A program made the translations under genes and the position numbers. DNA of 64,000 nucleotides from Clostridium thermobutyricum (GTDB lineage: Bacteria; Bacillota; Clostridia; Ch29): the NCBI GenBank assembly GCA_016842005.1, contig JAENYD010000004.1:1-64000 (forward strand), given 5' to 3'. Numbering within the stretch: position 1 is the stretch's first letter; each line of letters begins with the position of its first letter. Below the pieces are notes generated by a model, which did not search any database, was not told the DNA's origin, and saw nothing but the letters and a program-made list of their open reading frames with translations. Positions 247-57,750 of the stretch are shown in pieces.

Positions 247-1731
247 TCAATCCCTTGGCTTCATTGTAGGAAACAAGATTACATCCCGTATTGAATAGGC
301 ATCGGTGAAGAACATAACAAGCCTGTCTATGCCAATACCCAATCCTCCTGTGGGGGGAAGCCCCACTTCCAGGGCATTGACATAATCCTCATCCATCATA
401 TGTGCTTCTTCATCTCCGGCTTCACGCTGCTTTAACTGTTCTTCGAACCTTTTTTTCTGATCCAAAGGGTCATTAAGTTCGGAAAAAGCATTAGCTATTT
501 CCCGGGCATATATGAACCCTTCGAACCTCCTGGTATAATCGGGGTTATCAGGTATTCTCTTTGCCAGCGGCGATACTTCCACAGGATAGTCCATAATGAA
601 AGTGGGCTGTATCAGATGCTCCTCCACCCTTTCCTCAAATACCGCATTAACAATTTCCCCTTTTGACATTGTCTTTTCAACATCAATATCCAGTCCCCTG
701 GCCGCTTCATACGTCTCCTGCTGTGTTTTTAAACTTGCGAAATCAATGCCTGTATGTTTGCCTATGGCCTCCAGCATTGTCATGCGGGTCCATGGTGGGG
801 TAAGGTCTATCTCGGTTCCCTGATATACTATTCTATTAGTCCCCAGGACTTTTTGTGCAGTATAGGAGAGAAGGTCCTCTGTCAGTTCCATCATATCCTT
901 GTAATCAGCATATGCCTCATATAGTTCTATAGAAGTAAACTCGGGATTATGCTTTATGGACATTCCCTCGTTTCTGAAAATCCTCCCTATTTCATAAACC
1001 TTCTCAAGCCCCCCCACTATAAGTCTTTTCAGGTGAAGCTCGGTTGCTATGCGGAGATACATGTCTATATCAAGGGTGTTATGATGAGTTATAAACGGCC
1101 GGGCATTTGCTCCGCCGGCTATAGTGTGCAGTATAGGGGTTTCCACCTCTATATAATCCCTGCTATCAAGAAACTCTCTTATAGCTTTAATAGTATTGCT
1201 TCTTATAATGAAGTTCCTTTTCACATCAGGATTCACAATTAAATCTACATATCTCTGTCTGTATCTGAGGTCAGGGTCCTTCAACCCGTGCCACTTTTCG
1301 GGCAATATCTGAAGAGATTTCGACAACAATACTATTTCGGACGCCTTTACGGATATTTCCCCTTTGCGGGTTTTAAAAACCTCCCCCTTGACCCCCACTA
1401 TATCACCTATATCATAGGAAGTGAATTCATCATATTTATCCCTTCCTATCTCATCTTCCCTTACATATATCTGAATTCTCCCGTACCGGTCCTGAACATC
1501 GGCAAAACTCGCTTTGCCGTGTCCCCGCATCGTCATTATACGACCCGCAATGCTAACACCTGTTCCTTTATATTCTTCATATTTATCCTTTATAATCTGG
1601 CAGGTATGAGTCCTGTCATATTTCTCTATAACAAACGGATCGGATTTATTTTCCTTAAGGGCTTTTAATTTTTTTCTCCTGAGCTTTAAAATTTCATTTA
1701 GGTTCTGCTCTTCTCTTTGGTTGCCACCCAT
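247..1731 (-). CDS. lysS: Lysyl-tRNA synthetase, class II
   Basis: Charges tRNA-Lys with lysine in the cytoplasm. The 494-residue protein has an N-terminal OB-fold anticodon-binding domain (about residues 55-160) and a class II catalytic core with motif 2 ([14 protein letters not shown]) and motif 3 ([12 protein letters not shown]) near the C terminus. Length is normal for the bacterial class II enzyme. It starts with ATG after a GGGGG ribosome site and lies 14 bp downstream of greA, so the two are probably co-transcribed. Tandem rRNA-type promoters follow it, as in the lysS-rrn arrangement of Bacillus subtilis. Confidence 0.98.
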
Positions 1732-7970: not shown

Positions 7971-8132
7971 AAACGGATAGCTCCTTCCAGGCAGAATGAA
8001 ACTTCTATCAGTAAGGGTTTTCTTCATCCCCGTCAGGGGACACATATAAATCAAAAATAAACCGCTTATCAGAAGAACAATTTGAAGAAAACTTAGCACT
8101 CATTCCATTTGGAAAAGCTAACGCTTTGTATA

Positions 8133-8177
8133 GGGCATCCATGCCCTGACAAACCTGTTCAAACATCCTGTTTGAAC
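8133..8177. repeat. Tandem small inverted repeats upstream of birA
   Basis: Two perfect inverted repeats 10 bp apart: 6-bp arms with a 2-bp centre, then 9-bp arms with a 3-bp centre. Both are perfect dyads at operator scale. They lie about 160-210 bp upstream of the birA start. They could be operators (BirA is itself a possible repressor) or RNA hairpins. Confidence 0.5.
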
Positions 8178-8288
8178 TACGCTTTTTCTACATTACATTC
8201 GCTGAGTTTTCTAATCAAATTCTTCAAATGAACGCTACCTTTATTCTTGATTTTCAACTAGAGGTGTTAGCATCCATTATACAGTGAC

Positions 8289-8357: not shown

Positions 8358-9554
8358 CTAACTGAATATTGAGAGCAGTACCCCTGCCGCTACCGCAGAA
8401 CCTATTACGCCCGATACGTTAGGTCCCATGGCATGCATAAGCAGGAAGTTGGACGGGTTCTCCTTCTGCCCTACCACCTGTGATACACGGGCAGCCATGG
8501 GCACTGCGGAAACCCCTGCAGAGCCTATGAGAGGATTTATCTTACCGCCGGACAGCTTGTTCATTATCTTGCCAAGTATCACGCCGGCAGCAGTTCCCAC
8601 ACCAAAGGCCAGTACACCCAGTACTATTATCTGGATGGTTTGTAGCTGGAGGAACCTTTCGGCAGATGCAGTGGCACCAACGCTTACTCCCAGAAATATG
8701 GTCACTATGTTTATAAGTTCATTGGCTGCTGTCTTGGACAGCCTTTCCACCACTCCACATTCCCGGAACAGGTTGCCCAGCATGAGCATGCCTACCAGCG
8801 CTGCCGCTGCCGGTAAAAGCAGCGACACTGCTATTGTGGTTATTATGGGGAACAGCACCTTCTCTGTTTTTGATACCGGTCTCAGCTGTTCCATCTTTAT
8901 CATACGCTCTTGTTTGGTGGTAAGCGCTTTCATTATGGGAGGCTGAATTATGGGTACCAGCGCCATATATGAGTAAGCTGCCACGGCTATGGGCCCCAGC
9001 AGATGGGGTGCCAGCCTGGATGTAAGATATATGGCGGTAGGGCCGTCAGCACCACCGATTATGCCGATGGATGATGCTTCAGGGCCGGTGAAGCCCAGCA
9101 GTATGGCACCTATGAAGGTGGTAAATATTCCAAACTGAGCGGCAGCGCCCAGCAATAAACTCTTCGGGTTTGCTATCAGGGGACCGAAATCGGTCATAGC
9201 CCCTACCCCCATGAATATTATGGGAGGAAATATTCCCAGATGGTCGCCCTGGAAGAAATACCACAGGAGCCCCCCGGGCTCGACACGAGCCTCCTCAGCC
9301 TTGGTCATTATAAGTTCCCCTGCCTGCTCTATCAGTTCTACAGGCTGATGGGTTATCTGATGCGCCATAAGGTTCGCCAGGGGCAGGTTTGCCAGGAGCA
9401 TACCAAATGCTATGGGCACCAGTAAAAGGGGCTCATACTGTTTAACTATAGCCAGGTACAGCAAGAAGCAGGCTATGGCCAGCATGAGTATGTGAGGTAG
9501 GTCCAGGGCAGCAAATCCCGTACTCTTTACAAAGTCAACCAGTACTTCTACCAT
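8358..9554 (-). CDS. mmdB: Sodium-pumping methylmalonyl-CoA decarboxylase, beta (membrane) subunit
   Basis: Integral membrane subunit of the OadB/GcdB/MmdB family, which removes CO2 from carboxybiotin and couples this to Na+ export. The 398-residue protein is strongly hydrophobic, with about ten membrane segments and the family motif [20 protein letters not shown], whose aspartate is essential in characterised members. It is the last gene of the operon, 26 bp after the biotin carrier. Assignment to methylmalonyl-CoA rather than oxaloacetate or glutaconyl-CoA rests on the mutase and epimerase genes in the same operon. Confidence 0.95.
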
Positions 9555-9580
9555 TTAAAAGTCTCCTTTCTTGGGATATT

Positions 9581-9976
9581 CTATTTCATGGATAAGAGTA
9601 CGTCACCTGCGTTAACTGATGCGCCTGTGGATACGTTTATGGATGCTATCACTCCGTCTGCCGGAGCCATTATTTCGTTTTCCATTTTCATGGCCTCCAG
9701 TACGAGAAGCACCTGACCGGATTTTACAGCGTCTCCTTCATTGACTTTCACCGACAGAACTGTTCCGGGCATCGGGGCAGTTACTGTATTGGCTCCCGCC
9801 GGGGCCGATGTTGCTGCAGGTTTTGGTGATGCCGCAGGCTTGGGTGCCGGAGCTGCAGGTTTTGGTGCTGCAGGGGCAGGAGTTGCTGCAGGAGCTGAAG
9901 GTGCACCGCCTGCTTTTATCTCTTCTACTTCCACTTGATAGCTGTTACCGTTCACAGTTATGTTGAATTTTCTCAT
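9581..9976 (-). CDS. mmdC: Biotin carboxyl carrier subunit of decarboxylase
   Basis: 131 residues in three parts: a short N-terminal segment (1-22), an Ala/Pro-rich flexible linker (about 23-62) and a biotinyl domain (63-131) with AMKMEN, in which K97 is the biotin attachment site. It carries the carboxyl group from the carboxyltransferase to the membrane subunit. Modification would be by the nearby BirA. Length and layout are typical of MmdC/GcdC-type subunits. Confidence 0.95.
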
Positions 9977-10016
9977 TCTGATGTTTTCCTCCTTAATCGA
10001 AATTTAATCGGTACAA

Positions 10017-10391
10017 TCAGTTTTGTAACATCCTGTTCATCTGGTCGGTCCTGCCTGCAAGACTCCATGCAGGAGCAGTTTCCGGCATGCGGACAATATT
10101 CCTGATAACCAGGTCAGAGGGCATAACTCCCATGCTGGAGGCAACCGCTGCAGCAATAACAGCAACAAGCTCGGTATCATCCTGTACGCTTTCCGCCGGA
10201 GCTACCTCTGTCTTTGCTGGTTCGGATTGTTTTGCGGATGTTGATTTAGCTGACCTGTAAAATATCTTTTCCATAACAGTCAGTATTACCATAAGGAATA
10301 TCAATGCCAGAAATACAACCAGCATACCCAGCAGGGTTATCTGTAAACCTTCCATAATATCTATAGAATCCCCAAATAACAATTGTATCAC
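10017..10391 (-). CDS. mmdD: Decarboxylase pump gamma/delta subunit (OadG family)
   Basis: Small 124-residue subunit with one N-terminal membrane helix (about residues 14-42, LLGMLVVFLALIFLMVIL) and a polar C-terminal tail, as in OadG/MmdD, which hold the soluble and membrane parts of the pump together. It starts 4 bp after the carboxyltransferase stop, so it is clearly in the same operon. The tail contains VAVIAAAVASSMG, a common mark of this family. Confidence 0.92.
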   Translation of the reverse strand: MIQLLFGDSIDIMEGLQITLLGMLVVFLALIFLMVILTVMEKIFYRSAKSTSAKQSEPAKTEVAPAESVQDDTELVAVIAAAVASSMGVMPSDLVIRNIVRMPETAPAWSLAGRTDQMNRMLQN

Positions 10392-10395
10392 CTCT

Positions 10396-11943
10396 TTATA
10401 CGGGTAGATTCCCGTGCTTTTTAGCAGGTCTGGTTTCCCGCTTACCGGCCAGCATATCGTATGCGCTTATCAGCCTTTGTCTTGTAGTGCTGGGCACTAT
10501 CACATCATCCACAAAGCCTCTGGATGCGGCCACATAGGGATTTGCAAATTTATCCTTGTAATCCTGTATTTTTTCCTGTCTGGTGGCTGCGGGGTCATCC
10601 GAATCCTGTATGTCCTTCCTGAATATGATGTTGGCTGCCCCTTCAGGACCCATTACGGCTATCTCGGCACTGGGCCATGCCAGTACCACATCGGCGCCCA
10701 GGTCTTTGCTGCACATTGCCAGGTATGCGCCGCCGTATGCTTTCCTGGTTACCAGGGTTACCTTGGGCACAGTTGTCTCTGAATATGCATAAAGCATCTT
10801 GGCCCCATGCCTTATTATACCGCCGTACTCCTGGTTGGTGCCCGGCAGGAACCCGGGAACGTCCACAAGGTTGAGTACCGGGATATTGAAGGCATCGCAG
10901 GTCCTTATGAATCTGGCTCCCTTGTCGGATGCGTTTATGTCAAGGCAGCCTGCAAGCACCTTGGGCTGATTGGCTATTATACCTATGGATCTACCATTCA
11001 ACCTTGCAAAACCGGTAATCATGTTCTGGGCATAGTATGGCTGTACTTCAAAGAATGCGCCGTTATCCACTATAAGGCTTATTACTTCTTTCATGTCATA
11101 GGGCTTGTTTGGGTTGTCCGGCACTATATCGTTCAGGGCTTCCTCCATACGGTTTACATCATCAGTACACTCGAATACCGGTGCCGATTCCATGTTATTT
11201 GACGGCAGGAAGCTGAGCAGTGTTTTAATATCCTCTATGCACTGCTTTTCATCCGCACTCATAAAATGCGCAACCCCGCTTATGCTGTTGTGGGTCATGG
11301 CTCCGCCCAGATCTTCAGCCGATACCTCTTCCCCTGTTACTGTCTTTATTACCTGGGGACCGGTTATGAACATCTGGCTGGTCTTATCCACCATGAATAT
11401 GAAATCGGTTAGAGCCGGCGAGTATACTGCACCGCCTGCACAGGGACCCATTATTACAGAAATCTGGGGGATAACACCGGATGCAATTGTATTCCTGTAG
11501 AATATCTGGCCATAACCGGACAGGGCGTCTACTCCTTCCTGTATACGGGCACCGCCTGAATCGTTAATACCTACAACCGGAGCCCCTACTTTCAATGCCA
11601 TATCAAGAACCTTGCATATCTTCTTTGCATGCATTTCTCCCAGGGAACCGCCCAGTACGGTAAAATCCTGGGCAAATACGTAAACAAGCCTTCCGTTTAC
11701 AGTACCATACCCGGTAACAACGCCTTCGCCAGGGGCCTCCTGTTGTTCCATGCCGAAAAGATTGCACCTGTGCTTTACGAAAGCATCAATCTCAACAAAA
11801 CTGCCTTTGTCCATGAGAAGGCCAATTCTTTCCCTGGCAGTCATTTTACCGCTTTGGTGCTGTTTATCTATCCTCTTTTGACCGCCGCCTTCCATAATTT
11901 TCTCTTTACGCTCTTGAAGGTCTTCTGTTCTGTTCAAAGCCAT
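10396..11943 (-). CDS. mmdA: Methylmalonyl-CoA decarboxylase, carboxyltransferase (alpha) subunit
   Basis: Transfers the carboxyl group of methylmalonyl-CoA to biotin, releasing propionyl-CoA. The 515-residue protein has the two crotonase-like carboxyltransferase domains (N-terminal about 20-260, C-terminal about 280-510), with [12 protein letters not shown] and the oxyanion-loop region [13 protein letters not shown], and a second GGAYLAM loop. It closely follows the propionyl-CoA carboxylase beta / MmdA family. No biotin carboxylase gene is nearby, which favours a decarboxylating pump over an ATP-dependent carboxylase. Confidence 0.95.
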
Positions 11944-11973
11944 TCCAATACCTCCACTACTTTTTTGTATTTG

Positions 11974-12375
11974 TTATCTTTCACTCAGTTCAACAAGTAC
12001 GCCGTAAGTACTCTTCGGATGCAGGAATGCAATTTTTGCTCCCCCGGCACCGTATCTGGGCTTCTCGTCTATCAATCTTACGCCTTTCCTTCTCATTTCG
12101 TCAAGGGCCTTTTCAATATCATCAACCCTGAATGCAATATGCTGTATACCCGCTCCTTTCTTCTCAATATATTTTGCTATGGGCCCTTCGGGGTCCGTGG
12201 ATTCCAGCAGTTCAATCTCTGTATCCCCTACAGGCAGGAATGCAACCTTTACCTTCTGGTCTTCAACCACTTCAACTCCTTCAAGGTTAAGTCCCAGCAC
12301 CTCGGTGTAAAACTTTAAAGCCTCGTCCAGATTGGCCACTGCTACACCGATGTGGTCAACTTTCTTAACCATCAA
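11974..12375 (-). CDS. mce: Methylmalonyl-CoA epimerase
   Basis: Interconverts (R)- and (S)-methylmalonyl-CoA, linking the mutase product to the decarboxylase. The 133-residue protein belongs to the vicinal oxygen chelate fold: metal-ligand positions appear as VDHIGVAV near the N terminus, EIELLE in the middle, GIQHIAFRV, and VLVELSE at the C terminus. Two ATG codons are adjacent at the start. It lies between the mutase GTPase and the carboxyltransferase in the operon, as expected for pathway order. Confidence 0.95.
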
Positions 12376-12424
12376 AATACCTCCTTTATATTTACTGATA
12401 TTTTTATCTGATAATTGACCGTCA

Positions 12425-13372
12425 CTAAAACTTCACCTGGTTGAAGTTTTTCTTTATAATATCCTCAACGGCCGTATATATATCAATATCCCTTGAAAGT
12501 ATCCTGTCAACAAGCCCTTCCAATTTTGCCTGTTTGTCTGTCCCCTGGAGGATCAACTCAAGCAATCGGGATTGTACAAGTTGAATAAGCTCTTCTCTGG
12601 TATTTCTGAACCGCCGGTTTCTTAATTCGCCGGATTTTTCCAAATACTCCCTGTGCTTAAACATGTTTTCCAGTAATTCAACAGTTCCGGTGTTATCCAG
12701 AGCTATTACCTTGGTGATAGGAGGACGCCAGTCTTTATGATCTCCAAAATCAAGCATCATCTCAAGCTCAATCTTAGTCCTGTCCGCCCCTTCCCTGTCA
12801 GCCTTATTTATGGCAAATACATCTCCTATTTCCATTATACCGGCCTTAATAGCCTGGATATCATCACCCAGTCCCGGTACCATTACCATTATAACGGTAT
12901 CTGCTGTCTTGACTATATCAACTTCCGACTGCCCTACGCCGACCGTTTCAATGAAGATATAGTCCTTCCCGAAAATATCCATTACCTTGACTGCTGTCTG
13001 GGTAGCTCTGGACAATCCTCCAAGATGCCCCCTGGTACCCATGCTTCTGATAAAAACTCCCGGGTCGGTATACAGGTCCTGCATTCTTATCCTGTCCCCC
13101 AGGATGGCACCTCCTGTAAAGGGACTGGTAGGATCTATCGCTATTATTCCTACGGTTTTGCCCTGGCCCCTTAAAAGCTTAACCAGTTTATCCGTAAGGG
13201 TACTTTTTCCGGCTCCAGGAGGCCCGGTAATGCCTACAACATAGGCATTACCGGTTCTATCATAAAGCTCCTTTATAATCCTGGTTGCTTCAGGGTCATT
13301 GTTTTCCGCAAGGGTCAGTAGTCTTGCAAGAGCCCTGACATCTCCGGTGACCAATCTTTCCTGCAGAGACAT
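12425..13372 (-). CDS. meaB: Methylmalonyl-CoA mutase-associated GTPase MeaB
   Basis: G3E-family GTPase that loads adenosylcobalamin into the mutase and protects it. Walker A is GPPGAGKST, followed by [20 protein letters not shown] and [14 protein letters not shown], with the NKAD base-recognition motif. The ATG at 13372 is preferred over an upstream in-frame TTG because GGGTGGTG lies just before it. Length is 315 residues. It follows the small mutase subunit by about 35 bp. Confidence 0.95.
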
Positions 13373-13407
13373 TATAGCACCACCCAATAATTAGTTACTT
13401 CCGAGAA

Positions 13408-13806
13408 CTATTTCCTTTTTATATTGTTCTTAATAAATTCTATTGCAGTGGTTGTTGGTGTTCCGGGGGTAAATATTGCAGATATGCCCGCCTGCTTCAA
13501 TCCGGGTATATCATCATCCGGAATTACTCCTCCGCCTACAACCAGCACATCATCCGCACCTTTCTCTTTAAGCAGGTTAACCACCCTGGGGAACAGGTGG
13601 TTGTGAGCACCGGACAAAATACTCATGGCAACTACATCAACATCTTCCTGAATAGCCGACTCCACTATCTGTTCGGGAGTTTGTCTCAGTCCTGTATATA
13701 TAACCTCCATTCCTGCATCCCTGAAGGCCCTTGCTATAACCTTGGCCCCCCTGTCGTGTCCATCCAGCCCGGGCTTGGCTACCAATACTCTAATTGGTCT
13801 ATCCAT
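13408..13806 (-). CDS. mcmB: Methylmalonyl-CoA mutase, cobalamin-binding small subunit
   Basis: The 132-residue protein is the free-standing B12-binding domain of the mutase. The histidine that coordinates cobalt from below is in DGHDRG (15-20, H17). Further marks are SILSGAH and VVGGGVIP, which shape the nucleotide-tail pocket. Separate large and small subunits are known in archaea and several Clostridia, whereas many bacteria have a fused chain. Confidence 0.96.
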
Positions 13807-13834: not shown

Positions 13835-15514
13835 TTATAGTATAACCGATTGTTGATATTCACCAAATACTTCTCTCAGCACTCCGCAGATTTCACCGAG
13901 AGTAGCATAGGATTTAACAGCTTCAAGAATGAAAGGCATGAGATTATCATCGCCCTGGGCAGCTTTCCTAAGGGCCGCAAGATCGGCTTCAACCTTCTGG
14001 TTATCTCTTTCAGCCCTGAGCTGCTGCAGTTTTTGTTTCTGCATTTCGCCCACACTGGGGTCAACTTTTAACAGGCCTTTGGGAGGCTCTTCTTTAATCT
14101 CAAATTTGTTCATGCCAACAACAATACGCTTGCCGGCTTCAATTTCCATCTGGTAACTGTAAGCGCTGTCCTGAATCTCTTTCTGAATGAATCCCTTGTC
14201 AATTGCCTTGGGCGCTCCACCCAGTTCGTCAATTTTATTGATATACTCCATGGCTTCTTTTTCTATTCTGTTTGTCATGGCCTCTACATAGTAAGAACCG
14301 GCAAGGGGGTCAACAGTCTCAGCAACTCCGCTTTCATACGCGACTATCTGCTGTGTCCTGAGAGCAATCCTGACCGACTCTTCAGTTGGCAAAGCCAATG
14401 CCTCATCTCTGGAGTTGGTGTGCAGGGACTGAGTCCCGCCAAGAACTGCGGCAAGAGTCTGAATGGCAACCCTTACTATATTATTGTCAGGCTGCTGGGC
14501 AGTCAAAGTGGACCCACCTGTTTGTGTATGGAATCGCAGCATCATTGATTTGGGGTCAGTAGCCCCGAACCTTTCCTTCATTATCTTGGCCCAAATGCGT
14601 CGGGCAGCCCTGAACTTGGCCACTTCTTCCAGAAGGTCATTGTGCGCGTTAAAGAAGAATGACAGCCTTGGAGCGAAATCATCTACATTAAGTCCGGCTT
14701 TTATAGCAGCATCCACATAGGCTATACCATCAGCCAATGTGAAGGCTACTTCCTGGGATGCGGTTGAACCGGCCTCTCTTATGTGGTAACCGCTTATGCT
14801 TATTGTATTCCACTTGGGCACATATTTGGAACAGTATTCGAATATGTTGGTTATAAGTCTCATGGATTGCTCTGTGGGGAATATATAGGTCCCCCTTGCA
14901 ATATATTCTTTCAATATATCATTTTGTATGGTTCCTTTGAGCTGGTCAGCGGGAACTCCCTGTTTGGCCCCGACTGCTATATACATTGCAAGCAGAACAG
15001 ATGCCGGGGCATTGATGGTCATGGAAGTGCTCACCTTATCCAGAGGTATGCCGTCAAACAGTATCTCCATGTCTTTCAGTGAGTCGATAGCAACTCCGAC
15101 CTTTCCCACTTCACCTTCAGCCAGTGCATGATCTGAATCGTATCCTATCTGTGTCGGCAGGTCAAAAGCCACGCTTAAACCAGTCTGACCCTGCTCCAGC
15201 AAATACTTGTATCTCTTGTTGGATTCTTCGGCTGTAGCAAAGCCTGCATACTGCCTCATGGTCCAGAATCTTCCCCTGTACATGGTGGGCTGAACGCCCC
15301 GGGTGTAGGGATACTCGCCCGGGAAACCAATGTCCTCAAGATAATCAAGCTCTGCAATGTCGTCAGGGGTATACAGCCTTTTTACTTCTGCATTCGAACC
15401 GGTTACAAAGGTTTGTTTTCTCTCCGGTCTCTTTGCCAGAAGCTTATTGACTGATTTCTCCTGCCATTCCTCCTTCTTGCTTCTTATCAGTTCCAATTTT
15501 TCTTTGTCCGACAT
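13835..15514 (-). CDS. mcmA: Methylmalonyl-CoA mutase, catalytic large subunit
   Basis: Converts succinyl-CoA and (R)-methylmalonyl-CoA by radical rearrangement, using adenosylcobalamin bound by the separate small subunit. The 559-residue TIM-barrel chain has [23 protein letters not shown] near residues 65-90, the substrate-binding signature of acyl-CoA mutases, and [19 protein letters not shown]. The B12 domain is absent, as expected for the split form. The ATG has a strong AAGGAGG ribosome site. The gene opens an eight-gene operon, and its leader holds the third copy of the structured RNA motif described for the CoA-transferase and the transporter. Confidence 0.97.
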
Positions 15515-15620
15515 TCTCTTTCCTCCTTTTAGTCATTTAATAATATAATTAGCAATCAATAAAAAAGTGATGTAAAAACAACTTATGTAAAGTCAAACGT
15601 TGATAACCTTCCAACACACA

Positions 15621-15720
15621 AACATAGCGGCAATACATACTGCAATAACAGTATGTGTTGCCGCTATGTTAGCTACATTTGCAACAAAAGGCTGTTTTGC
15701 TGCCGTAGGTAACCAGGCAT
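15621..15720 (-). ncRNA. Candidate riboswitch leader C, before the mutase operon
   Basis: Minus-strand order: a short stem TGCC/GGCA (15716-15719 with 15701-15704) whose loop holds GTTACCTAC (15705-15713); a hairpin CAAAA-CAGCC-TTTTG (15685-15699); then GTAGCTAAC (15668-15676), which pairs with the loop at 8 of 9 positions; then a 22-bp hairpin with a 6-base loop (15621-15670) that shares AAC with the loop-pairing strand. The architecture matches leaders A and B. The tail after the long hairpin is only moderately T-rich. It lies between the DUF3870 gene and mcmA with no clear promoter, so it may act as an attenuator inside a longer transcript. Confidence 0.55.
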
Positions 15721-15727
15721 TCAGCGC

Positions 15728-16060
15728 CTAGGAATCCATACCGAAATCCCCGGCTAGAGCAGTATGATATTTTGTATGGCACATCTTAAGCGCCGATACA
15801 ATCGCTTTTTTTGCATGGCCGAAATAGCTTAGTCTTATTTCGTCAATTATTTCATCTAAGTTATTAATATTTTTACCGGTGATAAGATCCCTTACAAATC
15901 TCCTTGCCGTATCAGTTGCCAGCGTGCAATCGGTTTCCAGGATTTCACCGCTGTCCATCCGGATAACCAAACCTATTGCTATTACCGTATACAGTTCTGA
16001 AGCAGTGATACCCTGCGGAAGCCTTGCATACCCAGTGACAAATATTTGCCTGGAATCCAA
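15728..16060 (-). CDS. DUF3870 domain protein
   Basis: The 110-residue soluble protein has the family's N-terminal pattern (IFVTGYARLPQGITA) and a C-terminal part with YFGHAKKAIVSALK. Function is unknown to me. It starts with TTG after GAGGGGTGA. Its place between the CoA-transferase and the mutase operon, all on one strand, suggests a role linked to acyl-CoA or short-chain acid metabolism, but this is position only. Confidence 0.8.
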   Translation of the reverse strand: MDSRQIFVTGYARLPQGITASELYTVIAIGLVIRMDSGEILETDCTLATDTARRFVRDLITGKNINNLDEIIDEIRLSYFGHAKKAIVSALKMCHTKYHTALAGDFGMDS

Positions 16061-16225: not shown

Positions 16226-17725
16226 CTATTTTACTTTCATTGTACCGGTGTCAATAAATCTCTGATGCCAGGACAATGCTTCCCCGAGTATATGCGGGGT
16301 ATGCTTGATTGGCCCGCTGGATGCCCTTTCAAAATAATCCATAAGCATATCTTTATAGTCGGGATGGGCACAATTCTGGATTATTTTTCTGGCCCTTTCC
16401 TTCGGACTTGTTCCTCTCAGGTCAGCCAGCCCCTGCTCTGTTACTATTACCATTACATCGTGCTCTGTATGGTCATGATGGGATACCATTGGCACAATAC
16501 TGGAAATGTCTCCCCCTTTAGCTGTAGACACAGTGGTAAATATGGAAAGGTACGCATTTCTGGTAAAATCTCCTGAACCGCCTATGCCGTTCATCATGCG
16601 GCTTCCCATTACATGGGTGGAATTTACGTTTCCATATATATCAACTTCCAGTGCGGTGTTCATGGCGATTACACCCAGTCTCCTGGCAATGGCAGGATTA
16701 TTGCTTATCTCCTGGGGTCTCAATATCATTCTATTTCTGTACCGGCTTATATTGTTGTACAGCCTCACAAGACCTTCCTCGGAAGGGGTAATGGAGGTGC
16801 CCGATGCCATTAATACCTTGTCGGCATCTATAAGGTCAAACATAGAATCCTGTATTACCTCGGTATAACAGTACAGGTCTTCAAATCTGGATTCCACGAG
16901 ACCGCCCAGGACGGCATTGGCCACGCTTCCTACCCCCGACTGAAGGGGCAGAAGGTTTTCTGGCAACCTGCCCGCCTTCACTTCCGACTCAAGAAAATCA
17001 ATCAGGTATCCGGATATTTTTCTCGAATCTTCATCAATGGGGCCCAGCGGCCTTACATTGTCCTTTATATCTGTAACAACTATCGCAGCAATTTTATCAA
17101 CTCCACAGGGAATATAAGTGGTGCCTATCCTGTCGTCCGGCTTGAATATAGGTATTGGTTGTCTGTTAGGAGGATTCTGGGGTGCATATATATCATGTAT
17201 TCCTTCAAGTTCCAGCGGCTGAGACGTATTTACCTCAATTATGACTTTATCGGCCATCTCAACGAAAACCGGGGAATTGCCTACAGAAGTAGAAGGGATT
17301 ATATGACCGTCTTCGGTGATGGCCACTGCTTCGATCAACGCAAAGTCTATTTTTCCGAGATAACCGTACCTCACATACTGGGGCGTATGGCTGAGGTGCA
17401 TGTCAACATACTCCAGACTCCCGTCGTTTATACCGTTCCTGATGTCTTTGTTGGTTTGATAGGGCAGTCTTTTATTTATCACTCCCGCCCGGGTCAAAGC
17501 TCCGTCCAGTTCGTCTCCCACCGATGCTCCGGTAAAAAGATTGATCTTAATCTTTTCTCCTTTGCTGGCTCTCTCAGCCAGAGCCAGAGGAACAGCCTTC
17601 GGGTATCCTGACGGGGTAAAGCCGCTGGTGCCTATCGTCATGCCGTCTTTTATCATGGCAGCAGCCTCTCCCGCCTGGCATACCTTCTTCATGAGATGCT
17701 CGTTTCTTATGCGGTCCTTCAACAT
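16226..17725 (-). CDS. Acetyl-CoA hydrolase/transferase family CoA-transferase
   Basis: The 499-residue member of the Cat1 / succinyl-CoA:acetate CoA-transferase family, cytoplasmic. It shows MTIGTSGFTPSGYPK near the N terminus, GVGSVANAVLGGL in the middle and GIGGSGDFTRNAYLSIF towards the C terminus, all typical. With the mutase and decarboxylase operon beside it, propionyl-CoA:succinate CoA transfer is the most economical role: it would charge succinate and release propionate. Acetate is an alternative partner that sequence alone does not exclude. Its leader carries a promoter and candidate riboswitch A. A strong ribosome site (GGGGAGGAAG) precedes the ATG. Confidence 0.9.
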   Translation of the reverse strand: MLKDRIRNEHLMKKVCQAGEAAAMIKDGMTIGTSGFTPSGYPKAVPLALAERASKGEKIKINLFTGASVGDELDGALTRAGVINKRLPYQTNKDIRNGINDGSLEYVDMHLSHTPQYVRYGYLGKIDFALIEAVAITEDGHIIPSTSVGNSPVFVEMADKVIIEVNTSQPLELEGIHDIYAPQNPPNRQPIPIFKPDDRIGTTYIPCGVDKIAAIVVTDIKDNVRPLGPIDEDSRKISGYLIDFLESEVKAGRLPENLLPLQSGVGSVANAVLGGLVESRFEDLYCYTEVIQDSMFDLIDADKVLMASGTSITPSEEGLVRLYNNISRYRNRMILRPQEISNNPAIARRLGVIAMNTALEVDIYGNVNSTHVMGSRMMNGIGGSGDFTRNAYLSIFTTVSTAKGGDISSIVPMVSHHDHTEHDVMVIVTEQGLADLRGTSPKERARKIIQNCAHPDYKDMLMDYFERASSGPIKHTPHILGEALSWHQRFIDTGTMKVK

Positions 17726-17792
17726 AATCTTCCTCCCCTTTAATCGCTAAATTTAAATTAATACATATACCTTGTTAAACAAAAAGCACTTC

Positions 17793-17914
17793 AAAAAACA
17801 AAAGCACGACCGCATGCTTGATTATTATCAAGCACAAGCCGTGCTATACCTACTCGCAGACAAAAGTACCTTTTGCCAACATAGGTATATGGCAAAAAAG
17901 AACCTATTCAGCTT
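17793..17914 (-). ncRNA. Candidate riboswitch leader A with terminator, before the CoA-transferase
   Basis: Minus-strand order after the promoter: stem TTGCCA/TGGCAA with a loop containing TATACCTA; a short A/T hairpin around AAAAGGTACTTTT; then TAGGTATA, a perfect 8-base complement of the loop; then a terminator GCACGGC...GTCGTGC (17804-17844) with an internal perfect 8-bp hairpin and a T-rich tail TTTTGTTTTTT (17793-17803). The base of the terminator stem touches the loop-pairing strand, so pseudoknot and terminator compete. It matches leader B at most positions, with compensatory changes in stems. The class is not recognised. Confidence 0.75.
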
Positions 17915-17920
17915 GAGTTT

Positions 17921-17949
17921 ATTATACCACATCATTTTTACCTGTTCAA
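17921..17949 (-). promoter_or_regulatory. Sigma-A promoter for leader A and CoA-transferase
   Basis: On the minus strand TTGAAC (17944-17949) and TATAAT (17921-17926) are 17 bp apart. Transcription would start near 17914, at the beginning of the structured leader. Confidence 0.85.
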
Positions 17950-17983
17950 CAGAAAACCCGGCAAAATGTGATTTTTTTAACGC

Positions 17984-18391
17984 TTAATCGTTCTTCCTTT
18001 TGCCTTTGTCATTAACTCTGTCCATGAACTTGTCCAGATTTATTATGTACCTTTCATGACGTCCTTCACCTATCTTCTCTTCCTCGTCATAGGCCTCCAC
18101 CTTGAAGACAAGCCTTCTGCCATCTATCTCAATCAGTTCTCCCACAGCATAAACCTTCATTCCCATTGGTGTTGCCGCCAGGTGCTTGACATCCAGATGA
18201 GTTCCCACTGTGGCGTATCCTTTCGGCAGGTGAAGGTCAACGGCCGAAAGGGCGGCATTTTCCATTAACCCGATCATCACGGGTGTTGCAAATACTTCAA
18301 CCCCGCCGCTGCCGAAGTTCGCCGCAGTATCTTTGTATTTTACCGTTGTCTCTATCTTTGCCGTCAGCCCTTTTTGCAATTTGAAGTCCAT
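17984..18391 (-). CDS. FlK-like acyl-CoA thioesterase (hotdog fold)
   Basis: The protein of about 135 residues resembles fluoroacetyl-CoA-thioesterase-like hotdog proteins: FATPVMIGLMENAA supplies the threonine and glutamate, and GTHLDVKHLAATP the histidine, of the usual Thr/Glu/His set. It would hydrolyse a short acyl-CoA. The start at ATG 18391 is preferred; a GTG three codons upstream overlaps the ribosome site. It lies within the propionate block, so a housekeeping role in releasing stalled acyl-CoAs is plausible. Specificity for fluoroacetyl-CoA is not implied. Confidence 0.85.
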   Translation of the reverse strand: MDFKLQKGLTAKIETTVKYKDTAANFGSGGVEVFATPVMIGLMENAALSAVDLHLPKGYATVGTHLDVKHLAATPMGMKVYAVGELIEIDGRRLVFKVEAYDEEEKIGEGRHERYIINLDKFMDRVNDKGKRKND

Positions 18392-18862
18392 ACATATCAC
18401 CCCTGACTATCCAGTATGATTAATATAAAAAATACTTGGAGAAACCTGTTCTCCCGCCCCAGGACCACCCTTTCAGGCACTGATTCTGAAGCTATCTTAT
18501 TATATCAAAAAATACGATAAAGCGAAACTTCCTTCAGGGGGTTCTCTTTGCCGTATACCTGTGCTATTGCAATATTATGCTGCATAAAAATAATAATAAA
18601 ATATTTTAATACTTAAAACCGATTTCAATGCCGGCAAGATACCGACCGGAATCTTTCAGAGAACGGGTATAACCATTGCCGGTGCGGTTATCCTGTCCAT
18701 GGGCAACAATTGCCCGGGAAGCATATTTCTCCATGGAACTGTCCGGATTTGGCCCGTATATTGCACCGGTCCGAACGGGTCCGGCAAATGTTTTGATTTT
18801 AAACATGACCTTGTTTTTAAGAAAAATAATCGAATTGACTTGCATTCGTTATAAATTTGTCA
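18392..18862. other. Intergenic region upstream of thioesterase and DASS transporter
   Basis: About 470 bp without a convincing gene. On the minus strand a perfect hairpin GGAGAA/TTCTCC (18438-18454) is followed after a few bases by TTTTTT, a terminator-like element in the thioesterase leader, with a TATAAT box further upstream (about 18500). A small dyad GGGCAA-CAA-TTGCCC lies near 18700. An open frame of 79 codons on the minus strand (18606-18845) has no recognisable features. Confidence 0.5.
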
Positions 18863-18891
18863 TTGAATGTAGATATATAATATGATATAAT
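18863..18891 (+). promoter_or_regulatory. Sigma-A promoter for leader B and DASS transporter
   Basis: TTGAAT (18863-18868) and TATAAT (18886-18891) with 17-bp spacing. Transcription would begin near 18898, some 20 bp before the first stem of leader B. Confidence 0.85.
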
Positions 18892-18897
18892 CAATTC

Positions 18898-19021
18898 CAA
18901 TTATAATTGAAAATCTGTTTCGCCATATGCCTATGGCGACAAAAAGTTCTTTTGCCGCATAGTAGGTATAACACGGCTAGTATTTGGTTTCTATCAAATA
19001 GGGTCGTGTTTTTGTTTTTTT
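18898..19021 (+). ncRNA. Candidate riboswitch leader B with terminator, before the DASS transporter
   Basis: Plus-strand order: stem TCGCCA/TGGCGA with loop TATGCCTA; hairpin CAAAA-AGTTC-TTTTG; then TAGGTATA (about 18963-18970), complementary to the loop with one G-U pair; then a terminator AACACGGC...GTCGTGTT (18970-19010) with an inner TATTTG/CAAATA hairpin and a tail TTTGTTTTTTT (19011-19021). Compared with leader A, one pair in the first stem (T-A to C-G), one in the terminator (G-C to A-T) and two in the inner hairpin changed together. The loop and its pairing strand are conserved. The leader is followed by about 160 nt before the gene. Confidence 0.75.
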
Positions 19022-19179
19022 ACATAAATAACACTGACTATAATTCTTTTGGTTTTCAGGATAACGAAGGGAGGGAGATACAGGGACATAAAAATATACG
19101 GCACAGGTTAGTCAGGTTACCGCCGTCACAACTTAATATCTCTTTAACGGAAATAACTATTTAAAAAGGAGGAAACTCA

Positions 19180-20436
19180 ATGTCACCAGCAATTATTACT
19201 TTGTTGATTCTGCTAGGTGCAGCCATTTTGTTCTTCACCGAGGTTATTCCCCTGCCTGCTACAGCAATGGCAGTTCCCATTTGCCTGAGCCTGTTCAAAA
19301 TCCTCAAACCGACGGTTGCATTCTCTTACTGGTCAGACAAATGGGTCATGATATTCATGGCAATGTTCATGGTTGGTGAAGCCATGTTCCGGACCGGTTT
19401 CGCCAAGAAGGTCGGTGAAATTACCGTTAAAGCCGCCGGCACCAACGAAATCAGACTGATGACATTTGTTATGATTGCCGTTGGCGGTATGTCGGCTTTC
19501 CTGAGCAACACCGGTACAACAGTTGTATTCATTCCCATAGTCCTTGCCATGTGTATGAGCTCGGGGGTAAGTCCGAAGAAAATGTTAATGCCCATGGCAT
19601 TCGCCTCCTCCCTTGGAGGCACCATGACCGTTATAGGTACACCTCCCAACGGTATTGTAAACGGTGTGCTGAGCGGTACCCTGAATATGCCTGAATTCGG
19701 TTTCTTCGAATTTGCAAAAGTCGGCTTCTTCTTCTATGTCATTGGCATTGCATTTACTGCTTTGATAGGCCATAGGCTCCTTCCCAAGGGCGGGGCTGAT
19801 GACGATATCGACACTTCCAGCCTCAAGCAGATTCCTGACGAAGAAATCCGCTGGAACAAGATGCCTGCAGCAATCATCGTATTTGTATTCGTAGTGGCTT
19901 CAATGGCTACCGGCTTTATAGACCTTGAGACCGCTGCAATGCTTGGTGCGTTCCTCGTTATAGTAACCGGCTGTATTACTATGAAGGAAGCCTTCCAGTC
20001 GGTAAGCTGGACTACCATCTTCCTGTTCGCCGGTATGCTTCCCATGAGCAAGGCTATGCAGGATACAGGGGCCGCTGAAATGGTCGCAAAGGCAATAAGC
20101 GGAAACCTGGATTCTCCTGTTATGATACTGGGAGCAATGTTCCTCGTTACTGCCGTAGTAACAAACTTTATGTCAAACACAGCCACAACAGCCCTGTTCG
20201 CTCCCATCGGAGTGGCCGTTGCCCAGGGAGCAGGAATAAGCCCGGCACCGATCCTGATGGGTATTGCCATGGCAGCTTCCTGCTGCTTCATAACGCCTGT
20301 TGCAACACCTCCGAACACGATAGTACTTGGCCCTGCCGGATACAAGTTCAGGGATTACTTCTTGTCAGGCTGGCCCTTACAGGTACTGAGCTTCATAATC
20401 GCTATGGTTGTAATACCGATATTCTTCCCGTTCTAA
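19180..20436 (+). CDS. SLC13/DASS-family sodium-coupled anion (dicarboxylate) transporter
   Basis: The 418-residue membrane protein has about eleven segments. It contains the two SNT signatures of divalent-anion/Na+ symporters, SNTGTT (109-114) and SNTATT (332-337), each followed by a hydrophobic hairpin, plus GTPPNGIV and ATPPNTIV loops. In the family these motifs bind substrate carboxylates and Na+. With the succinate-to-propionate genes next to it, a C4-dicarboxylate is the likely cargo; sulfate or another anion is not excluded. It is the only plus-strand gene in the block. AAGGAGG precedes the ATG. Confidence 0.88.
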   Translation: MSPAIITLLILLGAAILFFTEVIPLPATAMAVPICLSLFKILKPTVAFSYWSDKWVMIFMAMFMVGEAMFRTGFAKKVGEITVKAAGTNEIRLMTFVMIAVGGMSAFLSNTGTTVVFIPIVLAMCMSSGVSPKKMLMPMAFASSLGGTMTVIGTPPNGIVNGVLSGTLNMPEFGFFEFAKVGFFFYVIGIAFTALIGHRLLPKGGADDDIDTSSLKQIPDEEIRWNKMPAAIIVFVFVVASMATGFIDLETAAMLGAFLVIVTGCITMKEAFQSVSWTTIFLFAGMLPMSKAMQDTGAAEMVAKAISGNLDSPVMILGAMFLVTAVVTNFMSNTATTALFAPIGVAVAQGAGISPAPILMGIAMAASCCFITPVATPPNTIVLGPAGYKFRDYFLSGWPLQVLSFIIAMVVIPIFFPF

Positions 20437-45742: not shown

Positions 45743-45856
45743 CCACAGACAAATGTGGCTTATTCCTGTCTCGGGCCATAAGGCTCAGAGCAGCATTTGT
45801 AATATATGTCACAACCGGGTATGGTTCCTGAAGGATACCATCCCCAAAAATATAGA

Positions 45857-57475: not shown

Positions 57476-57750
57476 AAATTACATTCGATAAAGGCAATGA
57501 AGAGGAATAGTAGGAAATACATGCATCTTCAGAGAGCTAAACCCTTGGCTGCGAGGTTTAACGATAGCTTATTTCCGAAACCCGCCTTTGAGCTGACGGT
57601 GATGAACCGGTCCGGACTTGTCCACCGATATTCGGACATATCAATGATGGTTGATACTAAGCAGGGTCATATAGAATGACCAAGTGAGGTGGTACCGCGG
57701 AAGGCAACCCTTTCGTCCTCTATAGGGATGAAAGGGTTTTATTATTTTTA
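57476..57750 (+). promoter_or_regulatory. T-box leader, proline-specific by inference
   Basis: The T-box sequence GAGGTGGTACCGCGG ends at 57700 and is followed by a terminator (AACCCTTTC with GAAAGGGTT, 57706-57738) and T-rich tail. Stem I can be folded: AAAGGC (57490-57495) pairs with GCCTTT (57584-57589) and GGAAATA (57513-57519) with TATTTCC (57570-57576). The internal loop strand between is GAAACCC, placing CCC (57581-57583) in the specifier position, a proline codon, in keeping with proC downstream. Uncharged tRNA-Pro would open expression. Confidence 0.9.

Follow-up and report, generated by a model that had tools for sequence, protein, structure and literature searches.

The analysis of a 64,000-nucleotide stretch of Clostridium thermobutyricum DNA (hereafter the window) and of other genomes of its phylum revealed a real and novel family of structured, terminator-linked leaders, all 17 copies of which lie upstream of a succinate-to-propionate gene, of a DASS-family carrier gene or of an Mrp antiporter gene. 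These leaders are almost certainly structured attenuators. On balance, they probably form a novel cis-regulatory RNA class, most likely a transcription-attenuating riboswitch, which governs the conversion of succinate to propionate and the Na+ economy that goes with it; the mechanism proposed below is drawn by analogy with known systems.

Leaders A and B and further copies of the family

In the window, leader A (17793-17914, minus strand) is located upstream of a gene coding for a succinate CoA-transferase (TIGR03458/ScpC; 16226-17725, minus strand), and leader B (18898-19021, plus strand) upstream of a gene coding for a DASS/CitMHS-family anion symporter (19180-20436, plus strand), which scores 189.8 bits with the dass model, against a curated cut-off of 198.6, and lies above the cut-off of the CitMHS model. 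A sequence-only reading of this DNA had described A and B as related leaders on opposite strands, each with a TTGAAy-17-TATAAT promoter and a final terminator, and this description holds. Indeed, (i) the two leaders have an 84-nt stretch in common, with 74% identity across the strands, (ii) leader A is preceded by TTGAAC-17 nt-TATAAT with a TG ahead of the second hexamer (17921-17949, minus strand; putative start site) and leader B by TTGAAT-17 nt-TATAAT (18863-18891, plus strand), and (iii) intrinsic terminators with U-tracts are present at 17793-17844 (minus strand) and 18971-19021 (plus strand). The folds of both leaders are more stable than those of all 200 shuffled sequences (z scores of -5.5 for A and -3.7 for B).

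Three covariance models were used: R1, a small model of four sequences; R2, of six sequences, all from the bacterial family of C. thermobutyricum; and R3, of 12 sequences. The conserved cores of leaders A (17838-17899, minus strand) and B (18916-18977, plus strand) match R3 with 70.6 bits (E 1.5e-17 per genome) and 77.9 bits (E 8.4e-20 per genome), respectively. Searches with R1 and R2 identified four copies in the C. thermobutyricum genome, namely A, B, C and F, and one copy in each of the relatives G002 and G003 (MAG records JABVCK010000005 and JAENYX010000074). Copy C (C31:162315-162376, plus strand, on contig 31) is located upstream of mrpE, a gene of the Mrp Na+/H+ antiporter. Copy F, found as a weak R1 match first and then with R2 and R3, has its core at 15660-15723 (minus strand), upstream of the gene for the large subunit of methylmalonyl-CoA mutase (13835-15514, minus strand), and ends in a strong hairpin that includes CGGC and has a weak U-tract (15615-15670, minus strand; approximate limits); it is probably the element that the sequence-only reading had named leader C.

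When R2 was run over 398 genomes of the phylum, the best matches outside the family (E 1.6e-9 to 1e-5) were found in G467, G633, G426 and G434, which belong to other classes, and all four are directly upstream of a succinate CoA-transferase gene. Since R2 had been trained without those classes and without any information on genes, these matches are nearly an independent test. Additional copies in G536, G777, G806 (two copies), G808 and G509 came from later searches with R2 and R3, which also raised the copy of G424 to an E-value of 2e-13. The final set comprises 17 copies from 13 genomes, seven families and at least four classes of one phylum, the only phylum sampled. The covariance-model search that the sequence-only reading had proposed thus found covarying homologues outside the window. 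An accidental resemblance, or a recent duplication that has no function, would fit the likeness of A, B and C within one genome, but is refuted by these homologues, which precede the same genes in at least four classes and covary, and we give it practically no credence.

A pattern scan of 85k genomes, tied to the CACGGC of the family of C. thermobutyricum, returned G002, G003 and two chance matches and suggested a family-specific element, a view overturned by the R2 matches in other classes. Comparison by blastn among 148 relatives was too insensitive, and a viral scan returned no copies. Weak matches (L044, L046-L053, L060-L067, L069, L070, L076, L082-L087, L092, L095-L097) were taken as chance after brief reading or scoring, being within coding regions, without terminator or partial. 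Two partial elements were also observed. In G424 (L081, about 1300-1400, minus strand), the first leader is followed, ahead of the CoA-transferase gene, by a second half-copy made up of a P1 3' strand, CCCGGC and a terminator, which may represent a tandem element or a decayed one. In G509 (contig 27, L097, 1501-1561), a partial look-alike with a long P1 and CGGC, without a U-tract terminator and with no gene directly 3', is a relic or a chance resemblance.

A covarying helix next to the terminator

From 5' to 3', the core is composed of GCC, 1-3 nt, the first strand of helix P1 (6-9 bp), a short internal loop, hairpin P2, the second strand of P1, RYNC and GGC; it is small, has few conserved unpaired bases, and its CGGC falls in the 5' arm of the intrinsic terminator. 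In leader A (all on the minus strand), these elements are the GCC of the putative helix P0 (17891-17893; its three pairs show no covariation), the 5' strand of P1, TATACCTAT (17881-17889), P2 (17857-17879), the 3' strand of P1, GTAGGTATA (17845-17853), and a GGC (17838-17840) that is both the 3' strand of P0 and part of the 5' arm of the terminator. RNAalifold yields a matching P0/P1/P2 fold.

P1 and P2 covary strongly. Both sides were altered at 7 of 17 P1 and P2 pairs among six sequences and at 14 of 21 pairs among 12 sequences; alignments A4, A5 and A7, having been fitted to the models, are biased in favour of the structure; A8 was not fitted in this way. In a MAFFT alignment of the 17 sequences made without structure, 93.4% of the cells are paired and 12 of 16 pairs are altered on both sides; none of 500 shuffles equalled the cells paired, the double changes or the covariation score, and structures slid along this alignment had at most four double-changed pairs, against 12. 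Column shuffles ignore relatedness, hence a tree-based null was also used, in which columns were simulated on a FastTree tree, each with its own number of changes. The 41 double-changed paired cells observed compare with 11.9 +/- 4.5 (maximum 31) in 1000 such simulations, none of which matched the observed value. A rough R-scape-like test restricted to the proposed pairs placed three P1 pairs below 0.05, and none of them survives testing of all column pairs, a test of low power with 17 sequences.

The sequence-only reading had noted that the loop of its first stem, TATRCCTA, is complementary to TAGGTATA, immediately 5' of the terminator, which would amount to a pseudoknot on that stem (TTTGCCA/TGGCAAA). 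The complementarity is correct, but the helix so formed, P1, is nested and encloses P2. Indeed, the stem and pseudoknot fold seemed right in copies A-D and fails across the 17 sequences, with 54.4% of cells paired versus 53.3% in shuffled alignments and a covariation score of 0.121 versus 0.124. An antiterminator hairpin between S3 and CGGC is possible in six sequences, without double changes, and was dropped.

P1 also bears on a leader-peptide attenuator, in which a mini-ORF framed by the conserved CCTATG...AGTAG of leaders A-E would be translated. There are 9-12 codons between the ATG and an in-frame stop in these five leaders, but no Shine-Dalgarno sequence precedes them, the start codon is ACG in copy F and absent from most copies outside the family, and the conserved positions are accounted for by the pairing of P1, which covaries. 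The mini-ORF was rejected for want of a ribosome-binding site and of a kept start codon, and this explanation is very improbable.

None of the 4227 models of Rfam 15, including those for the cobalamin, TPP, lysine, FMN and c-di-GMP riboswitches, describes the leaders. There was no credible match in 17700-19200 at E-values up to 10, and no leader match in 14 loci at E-values up to 1, copy F and the relatives being likewise without match. The earlier statement that no known riboswitch class is recognisable therefore stands, also with respect to the Na+ (DUF1646) and Li+ (nhaA) models.

Target genes and candidate ligands

Directly 3' of the 17 copies are genes for the CoA-transferase (10 intact and one decayed, in G808), methylmalonyl-CoA mutase (three), an MmdB-MmdA Na+ pump (one, in G806), the DASS carrier (one) and Mrp (one). 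The usual order of the operon, where the stretch is long enough, is CoA-transferase, mutase, B12-binding subunit, MeaB, epimerase and decarboxylase subunits. In the window, the B12-binding subunit, MeaB, the epimerase and subunits A, D, C and B of a Na+-pumping methylmalonyl-CoA decarboxylase are encoded at 8358-13806 (minus strand). Together these genes make up a pathway from succinate to propionate with a decarboxylase that pumps Na+; in other organisms, it can also run from propionate. A and B had been said to precede unrelated genes, which is misleading: the genes differ, but CoA-transferase, probable dicarboxylate carrier, mutase, Na+-pumping decarboxylase and Na+/H+ antiporter are functionally linked. 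A conserved RNA structure in the 5' leaders of functionally related genes, one of the marks of a riboswitch, is thus present. Two further observations concern these loci. In G808 (L091, 974-1409; L108, 9608-9962), the CoA-transferase gene has decayed into fragments behind an intact-looking leader and is followed by an intact-looking mutase operon, and a gene of the FlK type (fluoroacetyl-CoA thioesterase family), at 17984-18400 (minus strand) in the window, is repeatedly found near the CoA-transferase or mutase operon (L073, L074, L103, L108).

The coherence of this single pathway, from succinate to propionate with Na+ pumping, makes the likely ligands few. The most likely ligand is succinate itself or a different small molecule from the pathway, e.g. 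a CoA thioester. Succinate, which is the substrate used by the CoA-transferase and which the DASS carrier could plausibly transport, leads among the candidates and is our tentative prediction; Mrp would have its place in the Na+ circuit of the pathway. As a small dianion, on the other hand, succinate is an awkward ligand for RNA. According to a review, the citric acid cycle has no known riboswitch (PMC9971707), and our literature search found no mention of a succinate riboswitch. It is conceivable, if somewhat doubtful, that a natural riboswitch for this citric-acid-cycle intermediate activates an entire Na+-pumping fermentation of succinate, along with the carrier for the substrate and a Na+/H+ antiporter. 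The formation of propionate and its oxidation are important processes in anaerobic digesters and in guts, and an RNA that senses an acid of this kind would make a useful tool.

What the leaders sense could instead be free CoA or one of the CoA thioesters succinyl-, methylmalonyl- and propionyl-CoA. CoA thioesters are substrates of the CoA-transferase, the mutase and the decarboxylase, the adenosine moiety of CoA would be an easier ligand for RNA, and CoA is named among the cofactors still without a riboswitch (PMC9971707); CoA esters are, however, not handled by the DASS carrier or the Mrp antiporter, and this reading seems unlikely.

Alternatively, the leaders could be a further class of Na+ riboswitch that turns on Na+ export as Na+ rises. 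Three kinds of target point this way, i.e. the Mrp Na+/H+ antiporter, the Na+-pumping decarboxylase and the DASS carrier, which belongs to a Na+-coupled family. Moreover, the known Na+-I (DUF1646) riboswitches are likewise terminator-linked bacterial leaders, located before genes for Na+/H+ antiporters and Na+-pumping decarboxylases, among them oxaloacetate decarboxylase, and activate expression (PMC9337991). By contrast, most of the targets found here are the CoA-transferase or the mutase, which are not Na+-related, most copies being upstream of the CoA-transferase, and the DUF1646, nhaA-I and nhaA-II models gave no match. In G806, in addition, one copy is found at the CoA-transferase/mutase/MeaB/epimerase operon and another at the separate Na+-pump operon, which favours a pathway metabolite over Na+ alone. 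A Na+ sensor is accordingly considered quite improbable.

Comparison with known systems and putative switching

Several other known RNAs resemble the leaders in part. The Li+-I, Li+-II and Na+-II (nhaA-I, nhaA-II) riboswitches are compact as well and also precede genes for cation transporters (PMC9646797), but their Rfam models do not match the leaders and their gene set is different. A link to the cobalamin riboswitch lies in the mutase, which needs adenosylcobalamin; the leaders do not match its model, and the CoA-transferase, DASS carrier and Mrp antiporter are not B12-dependent. The orphan motifs of ncRNA surveys of 26 and 50 genomes are likewise small, terminator-linked leader candidates, and a keyword search of the main texts of these surveys found no motif reported before genes for succinate CoA-transferase, mutase or methylmalonyl-CoA decarboxylase (PMC8632094, PMC11109978).

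In mode of action, a comparison can be drawn with known ON switches. The fluoride (crcB) and ZTP (pfl) riboswitches are small aptamers in which the terminator and the final helix have a few nucleotides in common, and they switch expression on. The present leaders would work like them, but have no Rfam match to them and no supported pseudoknot. CGGC is invariant in the 17 copies, and GCC lies 1-3 nt 5' of P1 in all copies except E, which has none. In free folds, CGGC lies inside the terminator stem in 16 of 17 copies, the exception being G777, whose terminator is clipped by the U-tract rule, and GGC is common to P0 and the terminator in 16-17 of the 17. This conserved GCC, opposite the GGC in the terminator base, suggests that aptamer and terminator compete. 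The three P0 pairs hardly vary, so that covariation leaves their pairing unproven; further pairs (G-C, A-U, U-A or G-U) lengthen P0 in 10 of 16 copies, which is suggestive only.

A ligand would hold the core together and GCC would pair with GGC to form P0; the base of the terminator would then be taken, its zipping blocked and the genes transcribed. Without ligand, GGC would be taken by the terminator and transcription would stop. The terminator folds exceed the P0 folds in stability by 4-18 kcal/mol (G777, with its clipped terminator, being uninformative), and switching would therefore need ligand or kinetics. This ON polarity is probably correct, as the simplest reading and one that fits a catabolic pathway.

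The sensor is fairly likely to be the RNA itself, responding to a small molecule or ion, rather than a protein. In a protein-dependent attenuator, an RNA-binding protein, e.g. the DUF3870 protein, would sense the metabolite, bind the P1/P2 hairpin and prevent or favour the terminator. In the window, the stop codon of a DUF3870 gene (15728-16060, minus strand) abuts copy F, and such genes end within about 26 nt of the core, or overlap its first bases, in seven loci (window F, G467, the Mmd locus of G806, G777, G426, G536 and G633; the genes at the other leaders are L098 9051-9401, L099 8575-8883, L102 9095-9466, L105 10938-11264, L106 4645-5031 and L107 9147-9485). A protein site would also be in keeping with a hairpin in which few unpaired bases are conserved. 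However, no DUF3870 gene is present near the leader within the stretches read at the G003, G424, G434, G808, G509 and G806 CoA-transferase loci, a profile search of the PDB gave nothing convincing, and the predicted fold of DUF3870 (pLDDT 86), composed of three strands and three helices, lacks a good counterpart in the PDB and resembles no known RNA-binding fold. A protein-dependent mechanism is judged rather unlikely.

Other RNAs are also encoded in the window: a TwoAYGGAY RNA (an Rfam orphan; 46.2 bits) at 8072-8226 (minus strand), between the gene for the decarboxylase beta subunit and birA, as well as a pan motif RNA at 45762-45844 (minus strand) and a T-box leader at 57488-57723 (plus strand), both above the Rfam threshold.
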